Shown here in pieces: positions 30,368 through 50,511 of a stretch of DNA of 64,000 nucleotides (within the stretch, counting starts at the first letter, position 1; every line of letters begins with the position of its first letter). The notes under the pieces are model-generated. The model saw nothing but the letters and a program-made list of their open reading frames with translations. It made no database searches and was not told the DNA's origin. Origin of the DNA: Arabidopsis thaliana (lineage: Eukaryota; Streptophyta; Magnoliopsida; Brassicales; Brassicaceae); the NCBI RefSeq assembly GCF_000001735.4, contig NC_003070.9, positions 16,911,971-16,975,970 on the forward strand, in the 5' to 3' direction. The position numbers were made by a program, and so were the translations under genes.

Positions 30368-30665
30368 GAGGTTTGGTTTACATGTTGAACCGGAGATATT
30401 TGGGAGAGAAACATTACCGGTTCAGCAATATATTTTCCTTCGTTGGACAGCAAATTTTAGATAAGACTGAAAATGATTACATTTACATGAAAGCTCGAAC
30501 CATTTATTCACTTATTGTTGCTTTGTTTGTTCAATCAAAGATAAACCTTTTCTATATCCGAAAACTGAATTTGAAATTCGAACAAAACGTAAGAAAAACA
30601 TTCATCTAAAACTTACGATTTTCTGGAATAAAAGAAATATTCGGATATTTCATATACTAAAATAA

Positions 30666-30847
30666 AAGGTTTTGTGTAAAAAACTCTAACTCATTCATTT
30701 TTGCAATTTTACCCTCTATCTCCAACAAATGCAAATTAATCATACATAGTCTAAAATAATAGGAAATATGACTTTTATATGTATATTGCAAACGTTTTTA
30801 TACTCACCTATATTAGGTTTTAGAAAATTTGAAAATATAGTTGAACT
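30666..30847. mobile_element. Left half of a MITE split by the 19.4-kb MULE
   Basis: It begins GGTTTTGTGTAAAAAACTC and matches, in order, the left half of the intact MITE at 57394-57754 (TTTTTGCAA, CCTC, AAATAAT, ATATTG, AAACGTTTT, ATA(G/A)TTGAACT). The other half is at 50238-50441. The outer flanks CTAAAATAA (30657-30665) and CTAACATAA (50442-50450) match at 8 of 9 bases, fitting a 9-bp target duplication that has since mutated. Confidence 0.85.
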
Positions 30848-30866
30848 TGGTTTTAGATTTTTTGAA

Positions 30867-30945
30867 GGAATGTTACACATAGAGGCACTTTCGGAGAAAC
30901 TTAATTCACTTTATACACTTTAAAAACTAGAGGCACTTTGCCTTG
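30867..30945 (+). repeat. MULE left terminal inverted repeat
   Basis: These 79 bases run from GGAATGTTACACATAG to AGGCACTTTGCCTTG. They pair with the reverse complement of 50147-50225. Identity is clearest at both ends of the repeat and weaker in the middle, as in diverged MULE ends. Confidence 0.82.
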
Positions 30946-31359
30946 CTTTTGGAGTGAAATAAGACATATTTACCCCCACTAATTGGTAAGAGATATTACT
31001 ACAAACCGGTTTGTGGTTTCGTTTGGTTTTGGTCTAAAATATACGGTTAAAATGGTCGGTTTAGAAAAAACAGTTTCCACGTTATGACGATCGTCGGATT
31101 TCATTTAATTAAACGGCCGTGATTAATCATTGTAACTTCCCTTGCTTTTCGACTAAATTCAAACTGACACACGAGATCCATTGAAACACATAAGATTCTG
31201 GGTTTCGATCATCGAACTTTGGCCAACTGTCGTTTCCAAGGAGGTACGATTGTAGAAAACTGATATCATGATATTAAAACGCAATTTCGTGCTTTCTATT
31301 TGTTACGGGAATCAGAATATAACCAATTTTTATTTTATCGTTTATATGTACAGGGATCG
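30946..31359 (+). promoter_or_regulatory. mudrA promoter/5' leader region
   Basis: This is the interval between the left inverted repeat and the transposase start codon. TGTACAG at 31347-31353 is a plausible splice acceptor directly before the start, so a 5' UTR intron is possible. MULE transposase genes are usually transcribed inward from a terminal repeat, which fits this arrangement. Confidence 0.4.
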
Positions 31360-34295
31360 ATGGACGACTATATCATGGTTATATGTGGAGAGTGGTTTTG
31401 TTCTTCGACTGGAGAGTGGAAATTGGAGATATGTAACCAACTTTTCTCAAGGGTTGTCCCAATTCATGAGAGGATAACATTGGATGCGTTGAACGAAGCA
31501 ATTCTGCAGGAGTTTGGCGTCAAGGGTTTAAATCCTCTGTTAAGTTACTCTGTACCGAATAAGAACATGTTTGCAACAAAGGATAAGACTCCACCGGTTC
31601 TGGTTACAAGCGAGATTGGACTTCAATACTATCTAAAGACCCTTAGAGAAAACAGGGGTCTAAACTTGTTTGTGAAGTTTGAAGATAAGGTTGATACAGC
31701 AAATTTGAGTTGTGAAACGCCAGGAAGTAGTTCAAAACGGAAAGTTGACAGTTTGTATGATACAACAAGTGGTTCGAGAAATGCTGACACAGGTTCTGGG
31801 GATATATCTTCTGGTGTTTCAAAATCTCCTAATGTTCTGGTGACCCCTGTAGATGACGAATTCATGGATGCATTACACGATGCAGAAGAAAAAATAGCAA
31901 GAAGTGGTGGGCTGAAATCTAACGAAGAAGTAATTGTTGATGATGAAGATGACATATTCGTGGATGACTTATTTGTGGACAACAAAACAGAGGAAACAGA
32001 AGACGGGATAGATATTTCTGATGATACTATGCCCTGTGGCGGATATGATAAAGAGTTCTGGGGTAATTTTCTGTCGGATGATTATGGTGGCTCAAATGCT
32101 GAAGAGTTGATGTCTAAGGGTGGAGTAGATGCAAGGTACAAGGGAAAAAATAATAAAGACGGGAGTTTTGAGGGTTTAAATGATAAGGTAGGCACCAGTG
32201 AGGATAAAGTTGTTCAGTGCACAGGTAGTGGTGTCTTTGACCACGCTGTGTTTGTGAGTGGTGGAGGTTCAGGTGTAAACGCAGAGAAGGTTAAAAAGGA
32301 ATGGGCTGCGAAAACTAAGGTTGGTTGTAAAGCTGGGAGCTCTCACGGATTGAGAGGTGATGCAAGGAAGTTGGAGGAAATTGATGATGAGGAGTTTGAT
32401 ACCCCACCATTGTTTGAAGACATCGAGTATGAGGTAGAGAACATACCGGATTTGGATATAGAGGATGATGGCAAAGGGATATACAAGGGAAAAGTGTATG
32501 CAAGCAAAGAAGATTGCCAAATCGGTTTGGCTATATATGCGATCAAGAACATGTTTCATTTCAAGCAAACAAGAACAAAGTGGAATTATTTTGTTCTTAG
32601 TTGTTCAGATGAGAAATGTGATTGGAGAATTTTGGCGACACTCATGAAAGGTACTGGCTACTATGAAATTAAGAAAGCAAGTCTGGATCACACATGTTCG
32701 TTAGATACTAGAGGACAGTTCATGCAGAAGGCAACATCTAAAGTTATTGCATCCGTCTTTAAGGCTAAGTACAGTGATCCTACGTCCGGTCCTGTCCCGA
32801 TGGATCTACAACAACTAGTTCTAGAAGATTTGAGAGTCTCAGTGTCATACAGCAAGTGTTGGAGAGCTAGGGAATCAGCTTTAACTAGTGTTGCCGGGAG
32901 TGACGAAGAATCATACTGCTATCTGGCAGAATATTTGCATCTACTGAAGCTAACTAATCCTGGAACAATAACACATATAGAAACCGAAAGAGATGTTGAA
33001 GATGAGAGCAAAGAGAGGTTTTTGTATATGTTTTTAGCTTTTGGTGCCTCGATAGCAGGATTTAGGCATCTGAGAAGGATATTGGTTGTTGATGGAACAC
33101 ATTTGAAAGGAAAGTACAAAGGGGTTTTACTAACATCGAGTGGTCAGGATGCAAACTTCCAAGTCTATCCACTTGGATTTGCTGTTGTGGACAGTGAGAA
33201 TGACGAGTCTTGGACTTGGTTCTTTACGAAGTTGGAGCGTATCATTGCAGACAGCAAAACTCTGACTATATTATCAGATAGACACTCGTCAATCCTTGTT
33301 GCTGTTAAGAGAGTTTTTCCGCAAGCAAATCATGGGGCTTGTATTATTCACCTTTGTAGGAATATCCAGACTAAGTACAAGAACAAAGCTTTGACGCAGT
33401 TAGTAAAAAATGCAGGATATGCGTTTACCGGTACAAAGTTTAAAGAGTTTTATGGTCAGATTGAAACCACGAACCAGAATTGCGGTAAGTATCTACATGA
33501 TATAGGGATGGCTAATTGGACAAGGCATTATTTCAGGGGACAACGTTTCAATCTGATGACTAGCAATATAGCGGAGACCTTAAACAAGGCATTAAACAAA
33601 GGTCGATCGTCACATATTGTGGAGTTGATAAGATTTATCAGGTCTATGTTAACTAGATGGTTTAATGCGCGTCGGAAGAAGTCTCTCAAACATAAAGGTC
33701 CCGTTCCTCCGGAAGTTGACAAGCAAATAACAAAAACCATGTTAACAACTAATGGGAGCAAGGTTGGGAGGATCACCAACTGGAGCTACGAGATAAATGG
33801 AATGTTAGGTGGAAGAAATGTTGTTGATCTTGAGAAGAAGCAATGTACTTGCAAGAGGTATGATAAACTCAAGATCCCTTGCAGTCATGCTTTGGTGGCT
33901 GCGAATAGTTTTAAAATTTCCTACAAGGCTTTAGTTGATGACTGCTTCAAGCCTCACGCATGGGTTTCGAGTTACCCGGGAGCAGTATTCCCTGAAGCTA
34001 TTGGAAGAGACGAAAAAATACTAGAAGAGCTTGAACACCGATCGATGTTGCCACCATATACAAGGAGACCATCAGGGAGGCCAAAGGTAGCCAGAATTCC
34101 ATCAACAGGAGAATACAAGGTACGGATTTTTTTTTGCTAAAGTAGTACTTTCTATTTGATTGTTAAAACCTAATGCATAATGTGGTTTGTACATGGTAAA
34201 TGTAGAAACCTAAGACAGGAAGGACGGAGCAGAACCGGTGCTCGAGGTGCAAAGGCACTGGTCATAACAGGACAAGTTGTACAAATCCAATTTGA
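31360..34295 (+). CDS. mudrA-type MULE transposase, apparently intact
   Basis: This is the transposase of the surrounding element: a nuclear DNA-binding DDE integrase-like enzyme. Exons 31360-34119 and 34206-34295 give 949 residues without stop or frameshift. The first ~100 residues resemble the N-terminal module common in plant mudrA proteins. A long acidic linker follows to ~residue 370. The MuDR DNA-binding domain is ~375-450 (GKVYASKEDCQIGLAIYAIK, then SCSDEKCDWR and DHTC). The MULE core has Asp ~578 in VDGTHLKG, Asp ~640 in LSDRHSS and Glu ~739 in SNIAETLNKAL, a complete DDE triad. A SWIM zinc finger (CTCKRYDKLKIPCSHAL) starts ~829. The second exon adds a CCHC knuckle (CSRCKGTGHNRTSC). 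The start is the ATG at 31360; upstream in-frame codons lack an ATG. The element may thus be autonomous. Confidence 0.9.
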
Positions 34296-35269
34296 ACAAG
34301 TTCTTACGGTGGATGACTTTGAGATTGCAATTTAGGATATTAATTGTTTTTCTTTTGTAATGTAATTCGTAGGTGTAAAACATATAAATATTTATTGAGT
34401 ATTGGATGCTAATTAAGTTTTTCATTTATACTGCTTATGTTACACCAGGGACACGCAAGAATGTCTGAGAAAAGGGACAAGTACATGAAAATCAAATATT
34501 TCTTTTTTCTATACAAGTATAGTTGACCATCAGATCATATCCAATCGTTTGATTTAAATAGATCTATTTGTAAGATTAGTTCGATTTACATGTTTAAATA
34601 TTGTAAGATACCCCAATCAGTTATATGTTGAAAAATTGGTAATTGTGAGCAAATTATTTTCAGATCATGTCAGATTTTAAAAATGGATTTAGAACCTATC
34701 AGGCATGTAAACAAACATCTTTTCCCATTATATATTTTTTTAAAACTTATGCAAATGCCAAATTTCTGCTAAAAAACATTGTAATGTACAAAGTGCATGT
34801 AAGGTTAGAAGTTTGTTGATTCTGAATAAAAAATGTGGACATTTATTGAATCGGATAATATAGAATAGAGGATATCGACTAATACATGTAATTTCATATT
34901 ATATAGCTTATTTTTTAATATTAAAAAACTTTAAAAAATTTGGTAATGAAATGGATGTCTCTGAATATTTACATGTAGATAGGAAATAAATATTTATATG
35001 TCTATCCACACACCCCAGACCAATCAGATATAACCAATCTTTAGTATTTTTGGAATTAGTATTGTCGGAAAAAATTGCTATGCATGCTCCAAAAACGAAA
35101 GAGTCCCTATAAGTCAATGATAAACGAGAAAGATGTTCACTAGTTTAAACGTTAAATACAAGAGAGAAATACAACTTCATAATAAGATTACATTAATAAA
35201 CTAGATAAAAGAGGGAAACATAAGAGATAGTTATATTCTGAAAGTGGGTAACTGATGTTTTTAAATAAA
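34296..35269. other. Spacer inside the MULE, between transposase and first F-box-like gene
   Basis: It is AT-rich, with no supported gene. It contains the 3' flanks of both convergent neighbours. Confidence 0.5.
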
Positions 35270-36057
35270 CTAGGAAAGCAAAAGGATGTCTCTGAAGAGG
35301 AAGAAGTAGACGCAATGTGAACATCTCTCACCATTATATTTGTTGTAAAATTCATGGATGAGCCAACAGTCTGGATAATCCTCATAATGAAAGAGCTCAG
35401 CGTAAGATCCGAATCGTTTTGGTTCCAAATCAGAAATGTGGTCAATTAGTGTCTTGGCCATGATATCTACATCTGTAAAACACTTGTTCTCTCGTTTGAA
35501 AGTATTAAACTCGTCTAATACTTCATTACCTGCGCAGCGGTTTAGAGCAATGTAAAGAAGTTTGGCTATAGGAATGACATCTTTACAATCATTCAATAAT
35601 GAAATGGCGCCTTTCAGGTCGAGAGAACAGAACCCTAGCCTCAAGCTCTGGAGATACATAGCGTAAGGGTTTCGTTTTGCAAGACATTTGGAGTAGAATG
35701 AGAAGTGAACAGAGTCGGGCGAAGACATGTTGATGAAGTCAGGGCTTTTATCTAAACGAACTCGGGATAGTGTCTCGACAGAGAAAGCTGCAGATTTCCC
35801 TTCATGACCAGATTTAATCCAGTTTTTCAGAGCCTCAATTCCTTCTTCTGAAACGTGGCTAACAATTAGTGCGAGAATTGGTTCCGGAATGTATAATCTT
35901 GCAATCTTCCTCTGTTGACAACGAAGACGAAAGGTTATAGAAGTTACATATACTTTGTGGAATGAATGTAAACTATATTTTTCTTAAAAATGAAAAATTT
36001 AACCTGTGTGTCGCTAGATTGTGTGATAGAGTGTAGACATTTGGATGATGTACTCAT
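35270..36057 (-). CDS. F-box-like (At2g35280-type) protein carried by the MULE, intact
   Basis: Exons 36004-36057 and 35270-35911 encode 231 residues without interruption. After a Ser-rich 18-residue start the protein reads YIPEPILALIVSHVSEEGIE, a helix resembling the degenerate F-box of At2g35280-like proteins. Next come AFSVETLSRVRLDKSP, FYSKCLAKRNPYAMYLQSLR and a Sel1-like region (CAGNEVLDEF), then a C-terminal Cys-Trp motif (DCW...ERCSHC) seen in that family. A true F-box would link targets to SCF ubiquitin ligases; here the motif is weak, so function is not assigned. It is the best preserved of four related copies in this element. The family assignment comes from pattern memory and is moderate. 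Confidence 0.7.
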
Positions 36058-36513
36058 TTTGTCTATTTGTTGCGAATAACGAAAGAGTAAAATGTGATGG
36101 AGAGAGAAGTTTTAGTACTGATCAAAACGGTTTAGAAATGAGTAATAAAAACAGAGTAATTAATTTGAAGTTTCTCTGAATAGGTCACAAACGTGAGGGA
36201 TGAAGCTTAGAGGGGAGTACGGGTTCAGTTATATATTAACTCTAAATATAAAAGATACCACTTGAATTCCATTAAAGCAATTTCATATACAAAAATGTAA
36301 GTCATAGTTCTGAAACAACTCAAATCATTTGTATAATAATTGTGACACCTTATAGTTGAAGACTCGAACAATATATAAATAAAGTTGGCGAAATATGCAA
36401 AATAAATTAAAACATAAAATAAAGAATAAAAACTTAGTTTCAAATATGTTTTCTGCAATCGAGAAGAACGATAAGATGAACATAAATAAAATTGGTACTT
36501 CTGATAGTATTAC

Positions 36514-37447
36514 TTATGAAATGTGTGCAATTTCCTGGGACAGGTAATAGTAAATACATGTGTTACACCACTGTCCCTCGTACTCATTCAGGTTCTGATG
36601 GTCAGACCAACACTCACCATAATCCTCGAACTCCCAGGATTTTTTGTATGTCCCTTGGCGACGTGGGCCAACCTCGTTGATATGGAACATTAATCTATCT
36701 GCAAATAAGTCGACTTCACTAAATTTGTAGTACCTTCACTTGTACTGAATATAAAATTCCCACGGAATTGATCCAGCGCAACTATAGAGCATGATGTAAA
36801 GTAGACCAGCATGTGGGAAAACGTCCTTTATGCCATCCAATATAGCAATTGACTCCTGGAGCTCAAACGTATGAAATGCCAGAACTAAACTATGAAGATA
36901 TAGGGCGTACGGATTTTTGGCGTTGAGGCATTTGGTGTAAAACATGTGAAAACTAGACGATTCTTCAGCCATATGAATAAAAAAAGGAGACTTATCTATT
37001 CGAACAGAATAAAGTGTTTCACTTGAAAAAACAGCGGCTTTTCCATCTGGACCTGATTAAATCCAAGCCTTTAACATATCTACACCGTCCTCAGAAACTA
37101 AGCTGACTATTTTAGCTGCTACATGATCAGGCATGTGGAAATCAGGGAACGGAGGAGGCTGAAAGAAAATGCGTACCAACGTTAACACCAAATTTTTGAG
37201 GCTATATACTAGTTCAAAACAAAAATTCTCATTTTTTGGATCAATTTCAGCCTCAATTCGATTGAAATTTGTTTTGAGTAAACATTACCTGTAGGTTAAA
37301 ATGAACCAAAGGTTGACGAAGAGGCTGCACGGCAAATTGATTTCCCCTAACAGGGGCAAGGGCGCTTGGGGGTCGCCAGTAATGTCTAGTAGGGGACATT
37401 GGTCGAGGGTGGATACATTTTCCTTTCTCGCAGACGATTTTTGGCAT
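36514..37447 (-). pseudogene. F-box-like (At2g35280-type) relic with two nonsense codons
   Basis: Exon 1 (37289-37447) encodes a basic, Pro-rich start, MPKIVCEKGKCIHPRPMSP. Exon 2 (36514-37158) continues with FHMPDHVAAKIVSLVSEDGV, homologous to the intact gene at 35270-36057. The reading frame is interrupted by TAA at 37057-37059, where the paralogues have Lys (WI-stop-SGPDGK versus WIKSGHEGK), and by TGA at 36736-36738. Beyond the second stop the same frame continues with KFSEVDLFADR, ECW and QWCNTCIYYY to a TAA at 36514. Only point mutations are seen, no frameshift, so the loss is fairly recent. It lies in tandem with the intact copy, same strand. Confidence 0.75.
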
Positions 37448-38333
37448 TTTGGATTATCAAATTAGTATAATACTGAAAGTGAACAAATAATGATCTAAGG
37501 AATTTGAAGAATCACTGATAATTAAAGAGGGCCGAACTAGGCTGAAGGGAAACAGATTTGAGATCGTGATGAAATGGGAACCCTAATTCTCTGGATAAAT
37601 GAATAGGGAGTGGTTTGGTGGAGCGATGGTTTACTGAATATAATTAGTGGATCCTACAAATATTCCAAAAAATTATACGTGATAGTAAAGTAGATATGTC
37701 CATATTCTCACGTCCATGAATATATATACGCATGGTTTACAATATATTATATAGACGTGCTACAGTGATTTGTTACAGCCAATTTAGCTGAATCTTATTT
37801 ATGGGGATTTAGGTATTTTTTTTTTTTTTTCTAAAGTTTTTCGTAAATATGAGAAGAGATTAGGTTTTACATTCATAGACCGATGTCATTAAAGACCAAA
37901 AACAATTGTTAAAATGAAAAGACTTCACTTATATAGAAATGTAGATAAAATGTAAACAAGAATTAACATAACAACAAAACAGCAGAAACAGATGTTTAAA
38001 CAGTTTGAGAAAGTTATTATGGTTTGACGTTTTACAAACAGTTGTAATCATGTATGTGGGTAATTCTACAGTTTTAAAACAGTTCAACAATGTTCCATAG
38101 GTGAACTTAATTCAGACACTTGATTAATAATCTTCTGCTTAATCTAAGTTTTTGTTGCAATAAATAAAATGGACAAAATTTGAATAAGTCAAAAACTTTT
38201 TATTAATATATAATAACATTTATAAAAATATTAAAACATTGTTGGAGGTAAACATAAGATGTGAAAAAAAAGAAAAGAAGATGAGATAACAATTGTAAGC
38301 AATAAACACTTTGATAGTTCTAAGCATCTTCCA
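37448..38333. other. Spacer inside the MULE
   Basis: AT-rich, with no gene supported. It separates the F-box-like relic from the RPA-like gene. Confidence 0.45.
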
Positions 38334-39348
38334 TTAGTCGACAACCATCTTGATTTCTTCAATTTCCTCAACATCAGGTTCGGGATACATGGTTGATATT
38401 GGCGCATGGCTAACAATCTTAAACCAGTTACAACCTGGATAATATCTAACCACCTTCCACCAAGCAAGTGCAATAACAACATTGTTCTTGCAAAATGCTC
38501 GAAATCTTTTCTCCAAATCCACTGCAATTTGTCCATTCGCCTCGCATTCCAATGTATCTTTGCTGAAAATCAGTAAGTATATGAGATTATACACTAACCT
38601 TACTACAAAAATGTATAAACATGATATGTTTGGAAAAAAACTGAAAATGGATGTTGAAGAAAAGTACTTTTTATCCATGATCATGAACGGCAGTTTAAAT
38701 CCAGCCGTATCTTTCCCGTTACTTGCGGTATTAGTGAGAATCCCAACATTCACAAGTGCACCAATAACATCTATAAAAAATATGTCGGAGATATGTGTTT
38801 AAAAAAATAAATTTTTTGAAAAAAGTGAATGGAATTTATGAATATGCCATTACTTACCAACCAAGGTATGTTTGCCAACAACATCATCCACAATGTAGTC
38901 AAATGGAGTGAACTTGTTGAGTAAACCGGTTGCTAAAGGTGTGGAAGAAGTGATAATTGTGTGATCCATGAATAGAATGCGAAACTCATGAGGAGTTGTT
39001 CTTATTGGTTCGCAGTTAGGTCGAACGAGAAACGTACTTATCTTTTTCCATTGATTCTCTTGGATCCTGTCAAAGTAGAAGGCAGAGAAATGAGGTCCGA
39101 TGGTTGCTTCTATTTGGGTGCCCTGTTACAAACAACAATTTATGGGTGAGGGATACATGGGTTAATAAAAATTCCGCAAATTGCAAAATAAATTGAAGAA
39201 AATTGTTTACCCATTCATCGGCCAAGACAAGACGTAGTTCGAAAGCGTTCGTGTTGAGAAATTTTTTGTAAATTCTCAAAACAATGACACAGATGGTCCA
39301 GCCAGTAACCATCGGAGACAACTCGTAAAGATTGTGATGTTGAACCAT
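38334..39348 (-). CDS. RPA70-like OB-fold (DUF223) single-stranded DNA-binding protein
   Basis: Exons 39211-39348, 38858-39122, 38668-38770 and 38334-38562 encode 244 residues with no stop. The first OB fold starts LYELSPMVTGWTICVIVLRI and continues ELRLVLADE and GTQIEATI, then FEFDRI-like and HEFRILFMDHTII, as in RPA1-like proteins with DUF223. The exon junction to DVIGALVNVGIL marks the linker to a second OB fold. Such proteins bind single-stranded DNA in replication and repair, and plant transposons (Helitrons especially) often carry copies. Here it sits inside the MULE in the same orientation as the F-box-like genes. An intact frame in a transposon suggests either recent capture or selection. 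It lacks the zinc-binding C-terminal domain of full-length RPA70. Confidence 0.75.
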
Positions 39349-39981
39349 CGTGAACAGGAGAATTAAAGAGTAACGAAAACTGAGAAATATGGTAAGCTTT
39401 AGTTTTGTTTTTCGTTTGTGATGTGGTTGTCTTGATGAAATCGTGAGTAGAAGTTGAATTTATAGAAACTGAAACGATGTAAACTGTAATAACGACGTGA
39501 TGATTCGTCGAAGGAATTAAACGTTGTAACTTTTAATTAAAAAACGTTGGTTCTATTAAAGTTTAATAAAGTAAAATAGAATTTGAAATACGGTATGGGG
39601 ATTTAATGTGTCTTGTAATAAGCAGAAATACGGCTTGACCTCGGAAATTCATCTTGAAGCAGGTTGCGGATATCATCAATTTATATGTGTTCATAATCTT
39701 TTTCTGTCCAAAATAACTTATCCACCGATAACCGTCCTTTTGGATGTAATATACATTCTTGATCTGAGTTATATGACCCAGAAGAGTTAGCATTTGAGAT
39801 TATTTTCTGGGGGATTTAACTTATTAAAACTTGCTCAGCACATTCATGTCAACCAATAAAATTAGTTGGATGAATGAATGAATTTACTTAGGATTAAACT
39901 TGAAAAGATAAAAGATAAATCAAGTATAGCAATGTACTTGACAAGATAACAATGGAAATAACATTATGAACATATTGATTT

Positions 39982-40467
39982 CTATGCTTCATACTCTCCG
40001 TAATGCTCCGCCCATACGGTAGCTCTATGGCATTCTGCTGCAAAATTCTCATATGCTATTGGTTTGTAAAATAGAGCATTCAAAGCATGTGGATTTTTGG
40101 CTTCAAGACATTTTGTGAAGAAATGATAATAGATGGAGTGCGTCATGGACCACCACATGTAATAACGAGATTTGTCAAGGCGGACACAACTTAGAGTTTC
40201 CTTTGAATACACAGCCGATTTAAATAGTGGTCCAGCTTTCACAAAGGGTTTCAAAGCATCCACGCCTTCTTCAGCAACGTAGCTAACAATTTTAGCAAGT
40301 ACTGGTGCCGGTATGTGAATTTCAGGCATAATAGCAACCTGCGTTAAAAAAAAAAAATTGGAAACAATTGGTTTTTTGTTTATGTTGGATGTAAAACGTA
40401 TAAGAATTTAGCTTATGATACGCTGCCCTACCTTTTTGACACCTGAAACAGATGATGGTTCACTCAT
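39982..40467 (-). CDS. Short F-box-like (At2g35280-type) protein, minus copy of a divergent pair
   Basis: Exons 40432-40467 (MSEPSSVSGVKK) and 39982-40338 encode 130 residues. The core reads IHIPAPVLAKIVSYVAEEGV, VYSKETLSCVRLDKSRYY and YYHFFTKCLEAKNPHALNAL, closely matching the divergent copy at 41008-41504. Both second exons are exactly 357 nt. It stops at TAG after YGEYEA and lacks the Cys-Trp C-terminus of the 231-residue relative, so it is a shortened form. Coding potential is intact; function is unknown. Confidence 0.65.
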
Positions 40468-41007
40468 GTCGACCTTCGTTAACTCCTTTTTATTTCTATG
40501 TTTTGAAGTTGAAACTGATTGAATGGGTATGAAAGAAACTTAAACGAATCGTGGGAGGTTTTCTTAACTAGAGATTACTATGGTTATATTTATTTTTATA
40601 TTTTTCCGGTTTATTAAATGTTGTAGTTGGGAAGGTGGGAATATTCCCGTAATAACGAAGTTTATCAATGTTATGGAGGGAAATAAATTTAGATTGTTCT
40701 TTCAAGCTAATAGAGATATAACTACCACATGATATACATACCCACATTTTTTATTTTTTTTTTAGTTACCTAAATTAGGAATATTTACTTTTACAGGGTC
40801 GCTCCAAATGAAAACTTATCTCCGTAAAACTTGCGTAATGGTTAAGATAGGGAATATTCTGCATTTGAAATTTCAGTTTGTGGTGCGAAATTAAAGGAAG
40901 TAGAAGAATAGGAGAATATAAACCATAATCTTTTTTAAATAAGTATCCACGATTTCTCCCCAGTTTATAAATTATTTCTTATTTGATTTCTTGCGAGCAT
41001 ATCAATT
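40468..41007. other. Shared intergenic region of the divergent F-box-like pair
   Basis: This 540-bp AT-rich stretch would have to hold promoters for both divergent genes. I see no inverted symmetry across it, so the pair did not arise by a simple palindromic duplication that included the promoter. Confidence 0.4.
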
Positions 41008-41504
41008 ATGAGAAGACAGAGACGCAGGAGTGAACCATCCGCCGGCTGTAGTGTAAAAATGGTTTTACAAACATTACAAAAATCATAAACTCTCCTACTT
41101 TATACTTTTATTTATATTGTCTTATTAAGTTATTATTTTTTGGCCAGGAAACCACCATTCAAGAATTTCACATTCCCCCTCCATTGCTTGCTAAAATTGT
41201 TAACTACCTGGCTGAGGATGGCGTGGATGCATTGAAAAATTTGATTAAAGCAGGTCCGGTATTTAAGGAGGCTGTGTATTCAGAGAAAACCCTACGTTGT
41301 GTCCGACTTGACAGATCTCGGAATTTCATGTGGTGGTCAATGCCACACTCGATCTATTATCATTTCTTCAATAAATGTCTTCAAGCAAACAATCCCCATG
41401 CTTTGACTGCTGTATTGTACAAAGGAATAGCATATGAGAATTTCGTTGAAGAATGCTACATGGCACCTTTATGGGTGGAGCCTTATGGAGAGGACGGAGG
41501 ATAG
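41008..41504 (+). CDS. Short F-box-like (At2g35280-type) protein, plus copy of a divergent pair
   Basis: Exons 41008-41061 (MRRQRRRSEPSAGCSVKM, basic) and 41148-41504 encode 136 residues. The core IPPPLLAKIVNYLAEDGVDA, VYSEKTLRCVRLDRSRNF and YYHFFNKCLQANNPHALTAV aligns residue for residue with the minus copy at 39982-40467. It ends at TAG after EPYGEDGG, the same position as in its partner. After that TAG the same frame stays open for 34 more codons (to TGA at 41607-41609) and encodes AYWAQ then CCRCKSAAHKTC, like the Cys-Trp tail of the longer relatives, so the short form probably derives from a longer one. Confidence 0.65.
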
Positions 41505-41636
41505 GTACAAATCGATGGAGCTTACTGGGCTCAGCCCCGAGTGCGAGCAATGAATGCAAGGTGCTGTCGATGCAAAAGTGCAGCACACAAAACTTGTCCA
41601 AATATGTGAAGTTCGATTTTAATGTTGTCTTTTTTT

Positions 41637-42259
41637 TTGAACCATTAAGAACCTTTGTTTTCATGTATTAGCTCCTTTCTTTTTTCTGGTTATAGTTTTC
41701 CAATTATGCTACATTACCATTTAAGATTTGGACCTTTCTAATAAGTAAGTAACAAACCTTTATTTATAATTAGTATATAATAATAATCCACATATCGTGT
41801 ACCTTATGAATATACGAATATGGATGGAACACAATAATATACCGCATATCACATTAAATACATGGATAACATATAAAATAGAGATTGTTCGTTTTGGGAG
41901 TAATGAAAAAAAAGGGTAGACATAATTCATACAACAACAATTCCTTGTTTTTTGAACCATTAAAAACCTTTGTTTTTCATGTATTAGCTCCTTTATTTTT
42001 TCTGGTTTTAGTTTTCCAATTATGCTACATTACCATTTAAGATTTGGACCTTTCTAGTAAGTAACAAACATTTATTTTATAATTAGTATAGAATAATAAT
42101 CCACATATCGTATACCTTATGGATATAAAAATATGGATGGAACACAATAATATACCGCATATCACATTAAATCCATCCATGTATAACATATAAAATAGAG
42201 ATTGTTCCTTTTGGGAGTAATGAAAAAAAAGGATAGACATAATTCATACAACAACAATT
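41637..42259. repeat. Tandem duplication of ~306 bp, period 315 bp
   Basis: Copies at 41637-41942 and 41952-42259 share TTGAACCATTAA, CATGTATTAGCTCCTTT, CAATTATGCTACATTACC, ATGGATGGAACACAATAATA and CATAATTCATACAACAACAA. They are ~90% identical by eye. The unit is non-coding and covers the 3' flank of the plus-strand F-box-like gene. Confidence 0.9.
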
Positions 42260-42415
42260 AGATTATGTTTACTATTCAACAAACCAAAATAGAACACACA
42301 CGTTCAGAAAATAGCTTACGGAGTGATAATATTCAAAAGGAAAATTTAGATGGTTAATATTACAAAAAGCAGAGATGGTTAAGATGGTTAATATTACAAA
42401 AAGCAGAGAAAGTGA

Positions 42416-45400
42416 TCACTTGTTACTAAAGTCAGATGCATAGAGTGGGCAGACAAACTCCTCATAAATGTCCATGGCATATTTACGACTAAAAGAGTCT
42501 ACGTGTTTATCTGTTATTTTCGCCATGTTCTCTGGGGGATTATCACTTGCCAGAATCTCAAGAAACTTCATTGTCACCGGGCCACAGTCACCATATCGCA
42601 AATTCTTATATAAGCCATCTAATCGCTTCCAATAAAAAGGCTGAAGACCATGATTCTAAGAACATTCAGGCTTACAGTACCTTTGGATGAGGTATGGCAA
42701 GATTGTAACAACAGGTTCAATGAAACGTCAAACCTCGTCTTCCTCGTAAAGATCTGTATTTGGATCGAGAATTTCAACGGACCAGACTCCCAGATTTATT
42801 GCAAGTCCTACCCAGTGTTTTGAATCCCATATCATGGGCAAGTAAATGGTATCAATGTCTGCGAACCATTCAGTGTTGGGCCCTACGATGAACTGTTTCA
42901 TTGGTTCAGACCACTTGACGCGTGACTTCATTTTGGCAGCTTTGAAGCTTTTTAATTTTCCTTGTAGATGGTTTGCGAACCATGGTTGAACAAAAGCCGC
43001 TCGCTGGTTTGTAAGTGTGGTCGCAAGCTTTTGAGAAAGCAAGGACACCAACACCTCCATATGCTAGGTAAACAAACAATAAGAATTAGACTTTCTCACT
43101 AAAGATTATAAAGGTAATATTTGTTAAAAAATTGTTGATTTTATACCAGAGTTGAAACCCAGTTTGTAGGCTTGGAAAGTGATAGAAGGAATTTGTTTGA
43201 AATTAAGTATCCATACGAAATGAGATGTTCACTGCGAGGAAAAAAAAAAGCATAAGCTTATAACAAGATCATAACTGTATTGGGGATAAATAAAATGAAT
43301 GTATAACCATACGTATTCGTTGCAGCGTAGAGGGTATTGCGAAAGAGTGCAAACTCAGATTTACTCATTGAAGGCAGAAGTTCATATGAGCCCCTTTTTT
43401 ATTTTGATAACAACTCTGCTACAAGAAAAACTTCAGCTTCAGACAGAGTTGGTTTCCCTCTTTCTCGCGCTGGAGATGAATCTGAAACATCAACATAACC
43501 TTCTTCCTGTACATTATAATGTAATATTAGAGCAAAGAAGAAAACCATCATCTAGTTTGAAAGTAGGAACATTAGTTTATAGTATTAAAGATGTTGTGTT
43601 TATCTTGTTTAGAGCATACCTGGTTTTCATCCAGATCATGTGCACCAATGTCTCGAGAATCATTGATTTGATCCTGATAGAATATGTCAAAAAGGATAAG
43701 TAAGTATTTGTATGAAAAAATTATTGAAACTGATATGTAAAAAACATAAATTTTTGCAGAGATGGACATAATTATAATATTACATATATTTGAAAAAACC
43801 TCAGTTGGAGTGGGAGAAGATTCTGATTGTTTGTCAGGTTTGGAATTTGTATCATAAATTGGATGGGAATATATTACCATAGCCTGCAATTATGAGATTG
43901 GTTTTGGAAATATATTAGACTATCTTTCGCAAATATAAAATGAGGAGACCTATTATAAGTGATATATCCTGCAAATTATTTAGTAACCAAATAATCATGT
44001 CAACTGTTTACCTTCATGGGGTCACCATCGAAGTTGACTTCTGGTGGCGACTGTGACAATACCTGAGATACTGCAGCCGACTCCAAAGTGACCTAAATGT
44101 AGAAGTATCAATAAGATGGTGAGAAAAACATAAGAAAATATTATAGCGTATCCACAAACTCCTGTCCAATTTAAAGAGAACAAGAGAGCCTAATTAAGTA
44201 TAGACATAAGGTTGACCTTCTTATTTGCGAACTTTGCAAACCCTAACAACGAATGAGATGCTGCAGCCGCCTCCATGGTGTCCTGAATGTTGTAGTAACC
44301 AAAAAATATGGTGAGTAAAATATTAGTAAATGTTATCTGCAAATTAACTAGCATCCACAAGGTTCTGTCCAATATAAATAATTAACTTACTGCAGCAAAA
44401 TTTATTTCAAACATAAGGTTGACATCCTTTTTAAAGACCATAATTAGTTCACACATAATCTTGACTTCTTTAAGAACATAATTAGTTCACTAATAGTTCA
44501 GACATAATCTTAAAGAAATACTTTCGCCTGCTGTTCTTCAAAGCTCTGATCTATTGGCAGATCTATATCAGAATGTGATGCAGTCTCCCTGTCCAATGAG
44601 TCCTGAAAGTAATTGTAGAATGAAATTGTTGTGTTAAATATACAGAGATGAAAATAGAATATGTATTTTCGATGGTTAAAGAAAGGCTTTGGCTTTGATT
44701 TGTTGTGTCTATGCAATATTCTCTTTATAAAAGTACCTGCATTTTGCCATCAACATCTGTTTCATTGGCATTTGTTTGCATTTCTTCGGAGTTGTGTTCT
44801 TTTGGTAGATCTAAACCAGAATGTGTGGCAGGAACTCTATCCGATGCGTCCTGCAAGTAATTGTAGAATGGATTTGGTTTAAAAAAAACATAACCATTGG
44901 TCTTCGCGGTAGGTCCAACAAATACTATATTATCTTACATCAATAATGTGATCTTGGTTGATAGGGAGTAGTTTTTCGACGCTAGGGACTGACCTTGGAT
45001 CAACCTGTTTTGAAATTACAATAGTCAATGTCTCTTATATATAAGTCATTATGGGTGTCCAAGAGAACATGTCCACCCAGGATAAATATTAAAGACAGCA
45101 TAAAACAAAATGTAGTTTTGATGGTTACAGAAAGGCTTTGATTTGTTGTGTTTGTATTTATAGAAGATAAAAGTACCTTCATTTGGCTATCAGCATCTTC
45201 CTCATTGGCATTCGATTCCTGTTCTGCAGAGTTGTGTTCTTTTGACAGATCTAAACCAGAAGGTATTGCAGGAACTCTCTCCGATGCGTCCTGCAAGTAA
45301 TTGTTGAATGGATTTGATAAAAAAAACAAATATAAACATTGGTCTGCGCAGTATGTTCAACAAAATACTATATTATCTTACATCAATAATATGATTTTGG

Positions 45401-48072
45401 TTGATAGGGAGTAGTTTTTCGACGCTAGGGACTGACCTTGGATCAACCTGTTTTGAAATTACAATAGTCAATGTCTCTTATATATAAGTCATTATGGGTG
45501 TCCAAGAGAACCTGTCCACCCAGGATAAATATTAAAGACAGCATAAAACAAAATGTAGTTTTGATGGTTAAAGAAAGGCTTTGATTTGTTGTGTTTGTAT
45601 TTATAAAAGATAAAAGTACCTTCATTTGGCTACCAGCATCTTCCTCATTGGCATTCGATTCCTGTTCTGTAGAGTTGTGTTCTTTTGACAGATCTAAACC
45701 AGAAGGTATTGCAGGAACTCTCTCCGATGCGTCCTGCAAGTAATTGTTGAATGGATTTGGTAAAAAAAACAAATATAAACATTGGTCTGCGCAGTAGGTT
45801 CAACAAAATACTATGTTATCTTACATCACTAATATGATCTTGGTTGAGAGGAAGTAGTTTTTCAACGCTTTGGTTTGAACTTGCATCAACCTGATTGGAA
45901 ATTACAATAGTCAATGTCTCTTATATATAGAGAGAATAGAGAATATTATGGGTGAGCAAGAAAACCTGTCAACCCAGAATAAACATTAAAGACAGCAGAA
46001 AAGAAAATTTTGTTTTGATGGTTAAAGAAAGGCTTTGATATGTTGTGTTTGTAGTTATAAAAGTACCTGCATTTGGCTATCAACATCTTCCTCATTGGCA
46101 TTTTGATCTTTGACATCAGTGTCATAAACAGGATTGCCTTCATTTGCATCATCCTTATTAGAGTGCTCTGATTATAGTGGAGTAACAAATACATCCATGG
46201 GGTCATCACTAATCTCCTGCAATAAGATGCGTTGTAGTCGTTAATTCAACCAATTTTGTAAATAGTTGAAGTTAACAATTACACTAACCGTGTTTATCAA
46301 TGGGGTACTATCACTGGAGTCTTGACTTTTATCTAAATGATCATCTGGGACTTGCTGTGCAACTTCAGGCTGTCCAATTACATGCTCAGACAGCGTGTGT
46401 GACTGAGATGAAGTCTATGAGAAAATTAAAAGATTTATTAAAACAGCCTGAAGTTGAAGTCTATGATAATGTTCAAATATTTAAAACAGTTTGAAATCTT
46501 GAATACCTGAGGGGTTTGAGATTGGATAGGGACCTCCATTGTCTTCTTGCGCTTTGGTCTAGATGAACATGCAACAAAACTGGAGGAGAGTTTTGTGGAC
46601 CGCTTGAATCTTACAGCTTTTTTTGCTTTTTCAAGCTTCATTACACGGTTCGATAGCTCTTCAACCTTAGTTTGTAGTTCACTGATGAGCCTAGACTTCT
46701 CATCATCAGAGAGATTGAGTTCCGGTTTACTACGAGTTGAATACCTTCGCTTGGATTTGGGAGCCACAGACTTTACACCTAATTTCTTCTTACGGTCCAC
46801 AATGTGCTTTTTATGAACACCAGAATTCTTCTTCTTTGGGACTGAGATTGGAGGCAATGTGGCATCACCTCCTGGCCAATCGGTTTTTTGGAATTGATGA
46901 GATGACCATATCAAATTATACATGTGTGCAACTTTCTTATCTTTCACCTCATCGTCCCACTCTGCCCAACTTTGGTCAGCATTAAGGTCTCCAACTATAA
47001 GCGGATCCACTGGCAGCTGTTCAAAAATAGAAGGATAGTAATAGTATATAAGACTGGATTTATAGAAAGAGAATATTATAGACACAATATAGATAATTGA
47101 GGTGAAAAAGAATACCTTAAGGTTGCTTTCCAAAGCATGAATCTGAGGATGCGATATAACTTGTTTTGGATGAGTTAATCGTTTCCAAAGTAGGATTGTC
47201 TTAGAGGTTGAGTCATCTAACACCAAATCTAACAGTCCAGGTATGTTTCGGAATGCTATGAGCTGCAAGGCTAGGGGGAAACCTTTCAAACGGAATGTTT
47301 TCTGCTGAAGTTGACTCACCAAACTCTTTATAGGGTCAGTTGTCAGCTGTCTTTTACCAGTGGACTTACCGAGATTTCGTTTGTCGGGTCTCATTCCTAC
47401 TACAGTCTTCAGAAAAGACTCTCTACCCCAAGGAAATGAAAGGAATTTATCCAAATCTGCCAACATCTCTACATATTTAAATGTAGGCCTACCGATTTGG
47501 TTCGATGCTATGAGTACACCATCTACAATAAGTAGAAACGCGAGCTTAAGTCTGTGGTCAGATGACAATGTCTTGCGTTTGTTGGTTAGCATGTCAGAAA
47601 CATCCCCTAAGGTAACAGTCTTGTCTGGACCAATTAACTCGTCCCAGTAACTCTTCATGCCATCAACATAAACCGGATCATCATCTGGATCATAATCCTC
47701 AGAAAACTCCCCACAGGGCAATCCAGTCACGCAAGCAAATTCAGGTAATGCAAATCTCAGGGGGTATCCACCAAATACTGTCCACAGCTCGTACTTTTTC
47801 TTCGTTACCAGCTGCGTACATAGCAACGCATGCATAAGCTTTCCAGACATCGCACACTTACTAACCGGCAGATGGAATAGAGGTCCAAAGCAAGATTGTA
47901 GAATGAAATCCAATTCCTTTGTCCCCTGAAAAACCTTCCGGATAAAGGATAGAATATCTGGTCTTGAGTATATATTTAGCCTTCCCCTCGGATATTGATC
48001 GGTGGCGAAAAGTCTATTAGGAAGATTTGAATCACACTGAGAAGATGGTTCCTGAGAGGTTGACCCTGTCAT
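42416..48072 (-). pseudogene. DUF1985 / Ulp1-like SUMO protease gene (Kaonashi type), broken
   Basis: The 5' large exon (~47117-48072) encodes a DUF1985 domain: SFIRKVFQGTKELDFILQSC, YELWTVFGGYPLRFALPEFA and VTGLPCGE. The next exon (~46507-47017) encodes a basic region and coiled coil (LISELQTKVEELSNRVMKLE). Small acidic exons follow, including the tandem array at 44640-46085. The 3' end encodes a C48/Ulp1 peptidase: His in WDSKHWVGLA, Asp in VEILDPNTD and Cys in YGDCGPVTMK, the cysteine-protease triad. In-frame stops lie at 46172-46174 (TAA), 43399-43401 (TAA), 42728-42730 (TGA) and 42656-42658 (TAG), so no intact protease can be made. The start may be the ATG at 48072 or a short upstream exon with ATG at 48199 (ATGGAAG/GT joined to 48064). 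Ulp1 proteases mature or remove SUMO; this copy is a transposon passenger. From memory the locus is near At1g44880. Confidence 0.82.
44640..46085 (-). repeat. Tandem exon array, ~443-bp units, inside the Ulp1-like gene
   Basis: Complete units run 45004-45446 and 45447-45890 (periods 443 and 444 bp, very high identity). Partial or diverged units lie on both sides (~44640-45003 and 45891-46085). Each unit carries two small exons on the minus strand, one coding DASERVPAIPSGLDLSKEHN followed by an acidic stretch ending SQMK, and one coding SVEKLLPIN. Splice sites are duplicated with the unit, so each copy can add residues without breaking the frame. Confidence 0.88.
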
Positions 48073-50146
48073 TAGCAAGAAACAAGTTTCAGAAGATTAA
48101 GATTAGATTAACAGATAATATGACCAAATGAAAACGAGTTCACAAACGTCTGTCTATTGCTTGCTTAGATTAGATTAACAGTGTAAGAGTACCTTCCATA
48201 GTGTAACAGAATAAACTTGTCTGCCAATGCTATCGATTTAGATGTTATACTGTCTTCCAAATCCTGTAACACAAACAGATAAACTCATCTTAGATATGGC
48301 AGCAATAGATATAGGAAAAGGAAATTATAACTATATGCAGATATTATTTTGTTTTAAACAAGTCAAAATCTGAAGTATATTTTTCATCTCCACAAAAGAA
48401 AATCAAGTTGCAAATGAAACTGACAAAAAAACAGAGAGTGAACAAAACAAAGTTCACAAACCAGCAGAAGATTAGGTGTAACCACTAAACTACAGCTAAA
48501 ATAAAATAGAACTGATTAGAAAAGGATCACTCTGAAGAACCAGGAGAAAGACAACTCTAAGAACCTAACAAAGCCTAGTTAGTGAAAGAAACAAAAAATA
48601 ATTCCGGCTACTTCAGAAATGAGAACAAGAGTTACCAAAATTCAGCAACAGATCATATGGTTTTGTCAATCAAACGAGTTTGTTACAAATGAATTACGTT
48701 TCCAAAACAAGAAATTCTCTTGTTTATAACTGAAATACGAAAAGAAAACTAAACAATGAAACAATTCACATAAAGATATATTACTTATGTGATTGTACAA
48801 TTACTCTATTATTGTTTTTTGCTAACATATAACTTAGAAGCACCACTAAAATACATATCAAATGAATAAAGATTTTAGTTCTGAAGCAAGAAACGAAAGA
48901 AACTCTAATTAGAAAATCTTATGATGAAAGAAAGAAACTCTAATTATAACAGTATGGCTCACCTCTAGCACAGTCAAATATGGACTAAGCTAGTGACGCT
49001 CTGCGAGTAAGTCAGAAAGGTACCTAAAAATGCCAAAATATCAGAGAGTAAACAAAACAAATTTAACAAACCAACTGAAGATTAGTTACTGAAAAATCAA
49101 AACACAATCTGAATTGATGTAATCCAAATATAGATGACCATCAGACCATATCCAACATGTTCAAGATAACAGCCAAAGTTGATAATGCCAAACAATCAGT
49201 GAGTAAACTAAGATTAGTTACTGTAAAATCATAACACAATGTGAATTGATTCAGTGCCCTGTCCACAAAAAGGGCGAGTGCTAATTAACTGTAAGATCAT
49301 AACACACTGAGTCATCTTGGTGCTAGCTTACCTGAACTTGGAGAAGGTGAGTATTTAGGCCCGTAAATGAACCTAAAAGCCAAAAAAAAACAGACAGAGA
49401 CAACCAGTATAAGTAAAAAGCTAAACATGAGAGAATAATCATAGGATCAAGGTGAAGTGGAATAACCTAACAAATACTAGTAAGTGAAAGAAAACCAAAA
49501 AGGTTAAGGCTTTACGAGTAATTGCAACAAGAGTGAGCAAAATTCATAAACAGAGTATATGGTTTTGTCAATCAAATGAGTTTGTAACTTAAATACTAAA
49601 AACGAGAAGCGAAAACCGAAGATAGAAACTAGAAAATAATAATCAAAGAGCCTAGAATAACTGTTTTAAGGGTTTCGACAATTCAAAATTTACATGAATC
49701 ATAAATCCAATTCGATATAAGAACAAGGAGAAATTTGGGGGAAATACCAGTGGAGTCTTCAGAAGAAAGAAAGTCGTGTGCAGCAATGGTGGTGGACAGT
49801 GACGGAGAAGTTGGAGAGAATTTAGGGTTTGTGAGCGAAATTAGAAGTCGTCGTCGTCTGTGTCTTCGTCTGAGCGAACAGGTTCACCGGAAAATCATCT
49901 GCGTCGACGTCTGAGCGAACAGAGTCACCGGAAAATCTGAAGAGGATGATGTCGCCGGATTCGTCTTCTACAACAACCAGTAATTAGCAGTTTTTTAGTG
50001 GATTAGGTTTTTACGCGAAAGGAAAAGTCTTCAAAAGTCAAAAAGGTAAAGAAACTGCAAATTCGAGGAGTGGTTTGGTTGGGATCTCTTTGGTTAATTC
50101 GGGTTTGGTTTAAAGAAAACCGGTTAGGGTAATAGAGTAACTTTGC
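48073..50146 (-). promoter_or_regulatory. 5' region of the Ulp1-like gene up to the right inverted repeat
   Basis: No long open frame. The stretch 48197-48290 has splice-like borders and may be a 5' exon. Words recur between ~48430-48670 and ~49040-49580 (for example TATGGTTTTGTCAATCAAA near 48658 and 49559), indicating an old internal duplication. The GC-rich part 49780-49990 holds a 29-bp unit repeated with small changes (GTCTGAGCGAACAG at ~49869 and ~49910) and is a likely 5' leader close to the inverted repeat. Confidence 0.45.
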
Positions 50147-50225
50147 CAAGGCAAAGTGCCTGATGATTTTAAAGTGTCGAAACACGTCTAAACTTATGAA
50201 AAAGTGTTTGTCTATGCAATATTCT
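50147..50225 (-). repeat. MULE right terminal inverted repeat
   Basis: In reverse complement it reads from AGAATATTGCATAGAC to CAGGCACTTTGCCTTG. It matches the left repeat at 30867-30945, including the inner CACTTTAAAA and GGCACTTTGCCTTG words. Confidence 0.82.
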
Positions 50226-50237
50226 CTTTTTTGAAAG

Positions 50238-50441
50238 TATAGTTGAACTCTTAGTCGCGAGAATTTCAATTTAACATATTGTATATGTAAATATTTTATA
50301 AAATTGATAGTAGCAAAAACAGACAAAAACTGGTTATAATGTGTATTATTTTAAACTTCACAAGATGAATTGCATTTGTTGGAAGTAAAAGGTAAAATTG
50401 TAAAAAATGGAAGAATGAGAGGATTTTTTTTGCACAAAACG
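50238..50441. mobile_element. Right half of the MITE split by the MULE
   Basis: It begins with the MULE target duplication TATAGTTGAACT, continues with sequence matching the right half of the intact MITE at 57394-57754 (CGAGAA/CGAAAG, GGTTAT, GAAGTAAAAGGTAAA, TTTTTTTGCACAAA), and ends at the inverted terminus. Joined conceptually to 30666-30847 it gives an element of about 370 bp. Confidence 0.85.
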
Positions 50442-50511
50442 CTAACATAAATAAAGTTAATTTCTGTTTTAAAAAGGATATTACATAAACTTAGTCGGTA
50501 ATATACTAATA

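Follow-up and report, generated by a model that had tools for sequence, protein, structure and literature searches.

A probable full-length Kaonashi-type Mutator-like transposon of Arabidopsis thaliana and the F-box-like and RPA-like genes that recur in its branch

Gene-like sequences inside a Mutator-like element (MULE) are known from Pack-MULEs, which have no transposase of their own. The element described here likewise holds gene-like sequences inside, but differs from a Pack-MULE in its own 929-aa transposase frame. Closer to it is the KI-MULE (Kaonashi MULE) with its KIU genes, credited to Hoen (2006) in PMC2528002, PMC6117577 and PMC13317346. KI-MULEs are described as non-TIR elements. 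In the available parts of these sources, their Ulp1 gene is antisense to the transposase (PMC2528002), and they have three coding genes, one of them KIU, the name used for Ulp1-bearing VANC genes (PMC13317346). Transposons that actively undo host silencing are rare, and VANC proteins provide one such case. For VANC, PMC5735166 describes DUF1985, introns with tandem repeats, and peptide motifs arranged in tandem.

We analyzed a stretch of 64,000 nucleotides of A. thaliana DNA (the window; C1:16911971-16975970). Its positions 30867-50226 (19,360 bp, forward strand by the orientation of the transposase) probably represent a large Mutator-like transposon of the Kaonashi type (VANDAL group) in a copy that is full-length but partly decayed, on account of the shared ends and five 9-bp duplications, the colinear sisters (88–96%) and the same gene set in distant families. 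With KI-MULEs it shares a Mutator transposase, a reverse-oriented Ulp1 gene and a high copy number. It differs in the F-box-like and DUF223 genes, which come in addition to the three coding genes described in the available text, and in having weak inverted ends where KI-MULEs are described as non-TIR. The locus itself is of a known kind (KI-MULE/VANDAL), and the recurring F-box-like and RPA-like set is the finding worth keeping.

A search of the genome (119.66 Mb, 7 contigs) with the element ends gave seven left-end and ten right-end matches. Five of each pair 18–22 kb apart in the same orientation, which argues against the ends being a cloud of solo MITEs. The paired copies are the window element and its four sisters at C4:1.89-1.91 Mb, C3:14.62-14.64 Mb, C2:3.99-4.01 Mb and C1:15.86-15.88 Mb, with sizes of 18,492, 18,123, 18,628 and 22,017 bp and identities to the window copy over aligned columns of 96.2, 94.5, 93.9 and 88.1%, respectively. 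MULEs make a 9-bp target-site duplication, and we found one at all five copies, with a different sequence at each; in the window it is TTTTTTGAA (left, 30858-30866; right, 50227-50235). The termini at 30867 and 50226 were taken from the alignment of the five copies, as their ends, each with its own 9-bp duplication, were printed side by side. The degenerate terminal inverted repeats, for which 100 bases were tested at either end (30867-30966 on the forward and 50127-50226 on the reverse strand), align with a score of 19.5, against a maximum of 10.5 among 500 random internal pairs. This bears out the diverged inverted repeats about 19 kb apart that had been reported in the initial annotation of the sequence.

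The four other genomic copies are colinear with the window element between the same ends, in agreement with the earlier statement that no internal boundary is present. The search with the terminal repeats for full-length copies, proposed at that time, thus yielded four sisters of 18.1–22.0 kb with the same genes. Since the family copies carry the same gene set, the unusual cargo characterizes the family as a whole and is not peculiar to this copy, and the notion of a larger, special copy with added cargo does not hold, as distant families have this set as well. The unit had also been called composite. A patchwork of separate insertions, with outer repeats that match by chance, might be suspected from the large size and the several internal repeats, but four places that are colinear between the same ends at 88–96% identity, each with its own 9-bp duplication, make such an origin highly improbable. 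The stretch is a single element with a single pair of ends. One extra left end lies at C3:15.07 Mb; within the part that was fetched, the copy to which it belongs has the left 7.1 kb in common with the window element, at 90% identity. At C4:7561329-7564130 a left and a right family end lie only about 2.8 kb apart with little interior, and this pair is probably a small non-autonomous derivative.

The element is flanked by the two parts of a MITE-like target repeat (left, 30662-30857, with one unit of the repeat's own short duplication; right, 50236-50452). When joined, these flanks match a repeat of approximately 400 bp, itself bounded by inverted ends, at 38 other places (with 40 of 99 candidates scored), of which about 31 lie in one array at C5:14.32-14.45 Mb. 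In all 18 relatives that were fetched (13 from one C5 tandem array and five dispersed), the alignment continues through the insertion point and is gapped at the position of one of the two window units. These paralogous empty sites support the earlier proposal of an insertion within a MITE. The window contains TATAGTTGAACT exactly two times (30836 and 50238), i.e., 10 bp outside the left 9-bp duplication and 2 bp outside the right one. It is indeed a direct repeat shared outside the ends, as initially noted, but it is not the insertion duplication, which is TTTTTTGAA: each of the five copies has its own 9-bp duplication, and TATAGTTGAACT belongs to a roughly 33-bp duplication inside the target repeat. 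As all 18 relatives align across the insertion point, this short tandem duplication was already present in the target repeat, and the MULE landed in its second unit. In the array on C5 (e.g., L045-L057), the target repeat is arranged in tandem with a spacing of about 2.2 kb.

The Mutator (MURA) transposase is encoded on the forward strand (31351-34140) by a frame that matches the Pfam family MULE (E=2.2e-23) as well as SWIM and DBD_Tnp_Mut. The frame is open across 929 codons in the window copy, and shifted or stopped in all four sisters. Antisense to it lies the Ulp1 gene. Its DUF1985 exon (46438-48096, reverse strand; E=2.9e-37) is an open frame of 552 codons that probably contains a read-through intron, and the SUMO-protease-like Ulp1 (Peptidase_C48) domain (42419-43063, reverse strand; E=9.6e-29 for the first piece) has two in-frame stops in the window copy. 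The C2 sister has an open frame of 215 aa through the latter region, and the C3 sister has lost most of the Ulp1 exon. Between the two exons are 3.1 copies of a 443-bp tandem repeat (44727-46102, reverse strand), several units of which contain a similar open segment of about 40 aa.

The first account of the locus, which was correct in proposing a Kaonashi-type MULE with an Ulp1 gene, did not include the DUF1985 exon and the 443-bp repeats, by which the Ulp1 gene can be assigned to the VANC/KIU type known from the literature. The available text on VANC-bearing VANDAL elements (PMC5735166, PMC10398659) describes the same combination of an antisense DUF1985 gene, non-coding tandem repeats and repeated peptide segments. 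A difference is that the window family shows no enrichment of the VANC21 and VANC6 motifs that have been published, with 0–2 matches per copy over both strands, although family-specific motifs may differ. K-mer counts on the element copies added nothing to this.

Four F-box-like frames are present in the element. Gene 1 (35270-35983, reverse strand) is open and matches the TPR_27 profile with 19.8 bits, below the cut-off of 27 bits. Gene 2 (36736-37284, reverse strand; 16.7 bits for its second piece) consists of two frames in the same register, split by one in-frame stop in the window copy. Gene 3 (39982-40407, reverse strand) is an inverted copy of gene 4 (41052-41504, forward strand). No F-box domain model matched the four frames at E up to 0.1, or three frames at E up to 10. 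An AlphaFold model of gene 1 (mean pLDDT 59.7) was too poor to decide on an F-box, and a Foldseek search with this poor model gave no match at E 0.001 or better. Relatives among database proteins include some of Arabidopsis halleri and A. suecica. In a genome search with TPR_27 (47 rows, of which one was omitted as the second piece of one locus), 25 of 46 rows have a transposase match no more than 20 kb away, and nine of these are over the cut-off. C2:14859763, which we take to be the At2g35280 locus, is over the cut-off too. The link to At2g35280 made in the earlier designation is thus an indirect one, through the TPR_27 rows near transposases; the window genes themselves remain below 27 bits and lack an F-box match. 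The F-box-like gene was also considered, and rejected, as the VANB of VANDAL21. In a 2-kb stretch that is presumably VANDAL21, judging by gene positions, no frame gave better than E=0.9 with the F-box-like profile, which sets the window element apart from VANDAL21 in this respect, and a 62-aa frame that was taken for VANB had no Pfam match.

The RPA-like gene on the reverse strand has two DUF223 exons, at 39211-39342 (profile positions 1–44; C1:16951181-16951312) and 38853-39125 (profile positions 44–103; E=2.4e-22 alone). Joined by hand, they match profile positions 1–103 of 104 with E=2e-44. Further exons probably lie at 38334-38798, an open frame in a region covered by homologues, in which a second OB-like region can be recognized by eye; this frame had no Pfam match of its own. 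The MULE transposase, RPA-like and Ulp1-like gene types of the initial annotation are therefore correct by Pfam (MULE, DUF223 and Peptidase_C48). The protein resembles a database protein named putative replication protein A1 and has the DUF223/OB-type domain in common with RPA70-like protein, and no PDB chain, a solved RPA structure included, matched it by sequence at E up to 1. Loci that we take to be the host RPA70 genes were absent from the genome matches of the DUF223 protein query. The gene looks like a member of a transposon-borne RPA family.

Helitron-borne RPA-like genes belong to the same DUF223 domain family and have a similar exon junction, but are combined with another transposase and other ends. 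That the DUF223 gene entered MULEs from Helitrons, or the reverse, and not from host RPA70, has in our view not quite an even chance. Among the matches listed (150 of 162, giving 101 loci when merged within 0.6 kb), 53 loci have MULE genes as nearest neighbors, 16 a Helitron N domain, and 32 neither. Within 15 kb of a Helitron domain there are 18 of these listed loci, compared with a mean of 5.0 and a maximum of 12 for shifted positions, and an exon junction near profile position 44 is common to the loci on the MULE side and on the Helitron side. These observations favor an exchange between the two groups. The 32 loci near neither group count against it, as does a narrower search with the DUF223 exon of the window itself, in which only one of 70 loci (merged within 0.5 kb) lies within 10 kb of a Helitron domain; within the stretch occupied by the window element, no match to the Helitron N domain was found.

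Purifying selection is clear for the transposase, DUF1985 and Ulp1. The whole transposase frame has dN/dS values of 0.35–0.47 in five comparisons with all intervals below 1, although two of the five intervals include 1 when the shorter catalytic part is used. For the DUF1985 exon, dN/dS is 0.14–0.32 in four comparisons (all intervals below 1), and for Ulp1 it is 0.11 in the comparison with C2 and 0.13 in that with C1b; the comparison with C4 showed no nonsynonymous difference. The rows of RPAex3 and the Ulp1 row against C3, where the domain is largely deleted, are omitted from these counts. F-box-like gene 2 gave 0.29–0.67, with one of five intervals below 1, and for DUF223 pooling of the five copies resulted in 0.96. 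Controls in wrong frames fell between 0.31 and 2.06, and one of those for F-box-like gene 1 was 0.48 where the true frame gave 0.46. Because the intervals mostly include 1 and the controls overlap, selection on the F-box-like and DUF223 genes is unproven.

These values bear on the possibility that the F-box-like and RPA-like genes are functionless passengers, caught once or repeatedly by MULEs (transduplication). It would agree with intervals that include 1 for F-box-like gene 1 (0.45–0.97, 5/5), for genes 3 and 4 (0.71–1.66, near 1 in gene 3) and for DUF223 against two further loci (0.45 and 0.48; a third pair had no synonymous difference), and also with frames that are broken in several copies and with an orientation of the F-box-like gene that varies between families. 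The one interval below 1 for F-box-like gene 2 speaks against it, and so do many open F-box-like frames of 236–272 aa and the recurrence of the set across the genome, which includes families with a transposase identity of 41–46%. With both sides weighed, we consider passengers an appreciable possibility, though the less probable one.

This recurrence was determined with five protein queries against the whole genome; F-box-like gene 4, a sixth query, was left out of the co-occurrence count. The transposase query gave 153 matches, from which three unlisted ones were omitted, and merging within 2.5 kb on the same strand resulted in 137 loci (F-box-like rows were merged within 0.7 kb). Partners were counted from 3 kb before to 20 kb downstream of the transposase match, and positions were shifted by 60–600 kb 1000 times as a control. 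DUF223 was found at at least 48, F-box-like at at least 44, Ulp1 at at least 42 and DUF1985 at at least 84 of the 137 loci, compared with shifted means of 5.9, 4.8, 4.7 and 10.8 (maxima 12, 13, 12 and 20), respectively. All four partner types are present at at least 16 loci, against a shifted mean of 0.94 and a maximum of 5. The counts are lower bounds, as the search scores the best candidates only.

Half of these 16 loci belong to the families with 41–46% transposase identity. At these eight distant loci, DUF223 shares the strand of the transposase match, at a distance of 1.3–2.0 kb, and is followed by F-box-like, Ulp1 and DUF1985 matches on the opposite strand. The F-box-like matches in the distant families are weak (approximately 24–28% identity) and are supported by the independent TPR_27 search. 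At the other eight, which are from the branch of the window element, DUF223 is on the opposite strand and there are more F-box-like matches. Among the matches listed, all four partners are missing at 31 of the 137 transposase loci, and DUF1985 is the sole partner at another 31, so that the gene kit is characteristic of one branch rather than of MULEs in general. Within this branch, F-box-like and DUF223 genes thus form part of a recurring gene set rather than private cargo, which is new here. A connection of F-box or DUF223 genes with KI-MULEs was not found in the literature searched, which comprised sources other than Hoen (2006) and Sasaki (2022), the likeliest ones. By the co-occurrence count, what began as one odd locus becomes a question about the whole family.

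Judging from related families, the transposase would cut and paste the unit by way of its degenerate ends, and the DUF1985-repeat-Ulp1 gene would be the VANC/KIU-type anti-silencing factor of the element. More speculatively, the DUF223 protein might bind ssDNA and in this way assist transposition or gap repair, and the F-box-like proteins might have an accessory role, perhaps as adaptors in the removal of a host protein involved in silencing. A wider reading, which we put forward tentatively and think rather unlikely in its entirety, is that this MULE branch runs a conserved kit of transposase, VANC/Ulp1 anti-silencing factor, RPA-like ssDNA binder and F-box-like adaptor. The element would then carry its own ubiquitin and SUMO tools and an ssDNA helper, to counter host silencing and to transpose, and would have its RPA-like gene in common with Helitrons. 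If F-box-like and RPA-like genes regularly belong to such a kit in divergent families, they would have testable roles, in protein removal and ssDNA binding, in the escape from silencing and in movement.

Some further features of the F-box-like genes were observed. Segments of genes 3 and 4 (39982-40359 and 41127-41504) are the 378-bp arms of an inverted repeat; they are 78% complementary and 767 bp apart, and a transcript spanning both could fold into a hairpin and be a source of siRNA. In the MULE family of L061 (C1:2794401-2795400), with related copies at C1:7.36, C3:9.73 and C5:18.12 Mb, the F-box-like relative is on the transposase strand (profile E=3.5e-12). At C1:12830629 and C5:14166596 there are copies 97% identical to F-box-like gene 1, in elements of which the transposase is only 81% identical. 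These copies have another position and orientation, and a copy of 67–70% identity occupies the usual place; on the sequence comparison, we interpret this as gene exchange between subfamilies.
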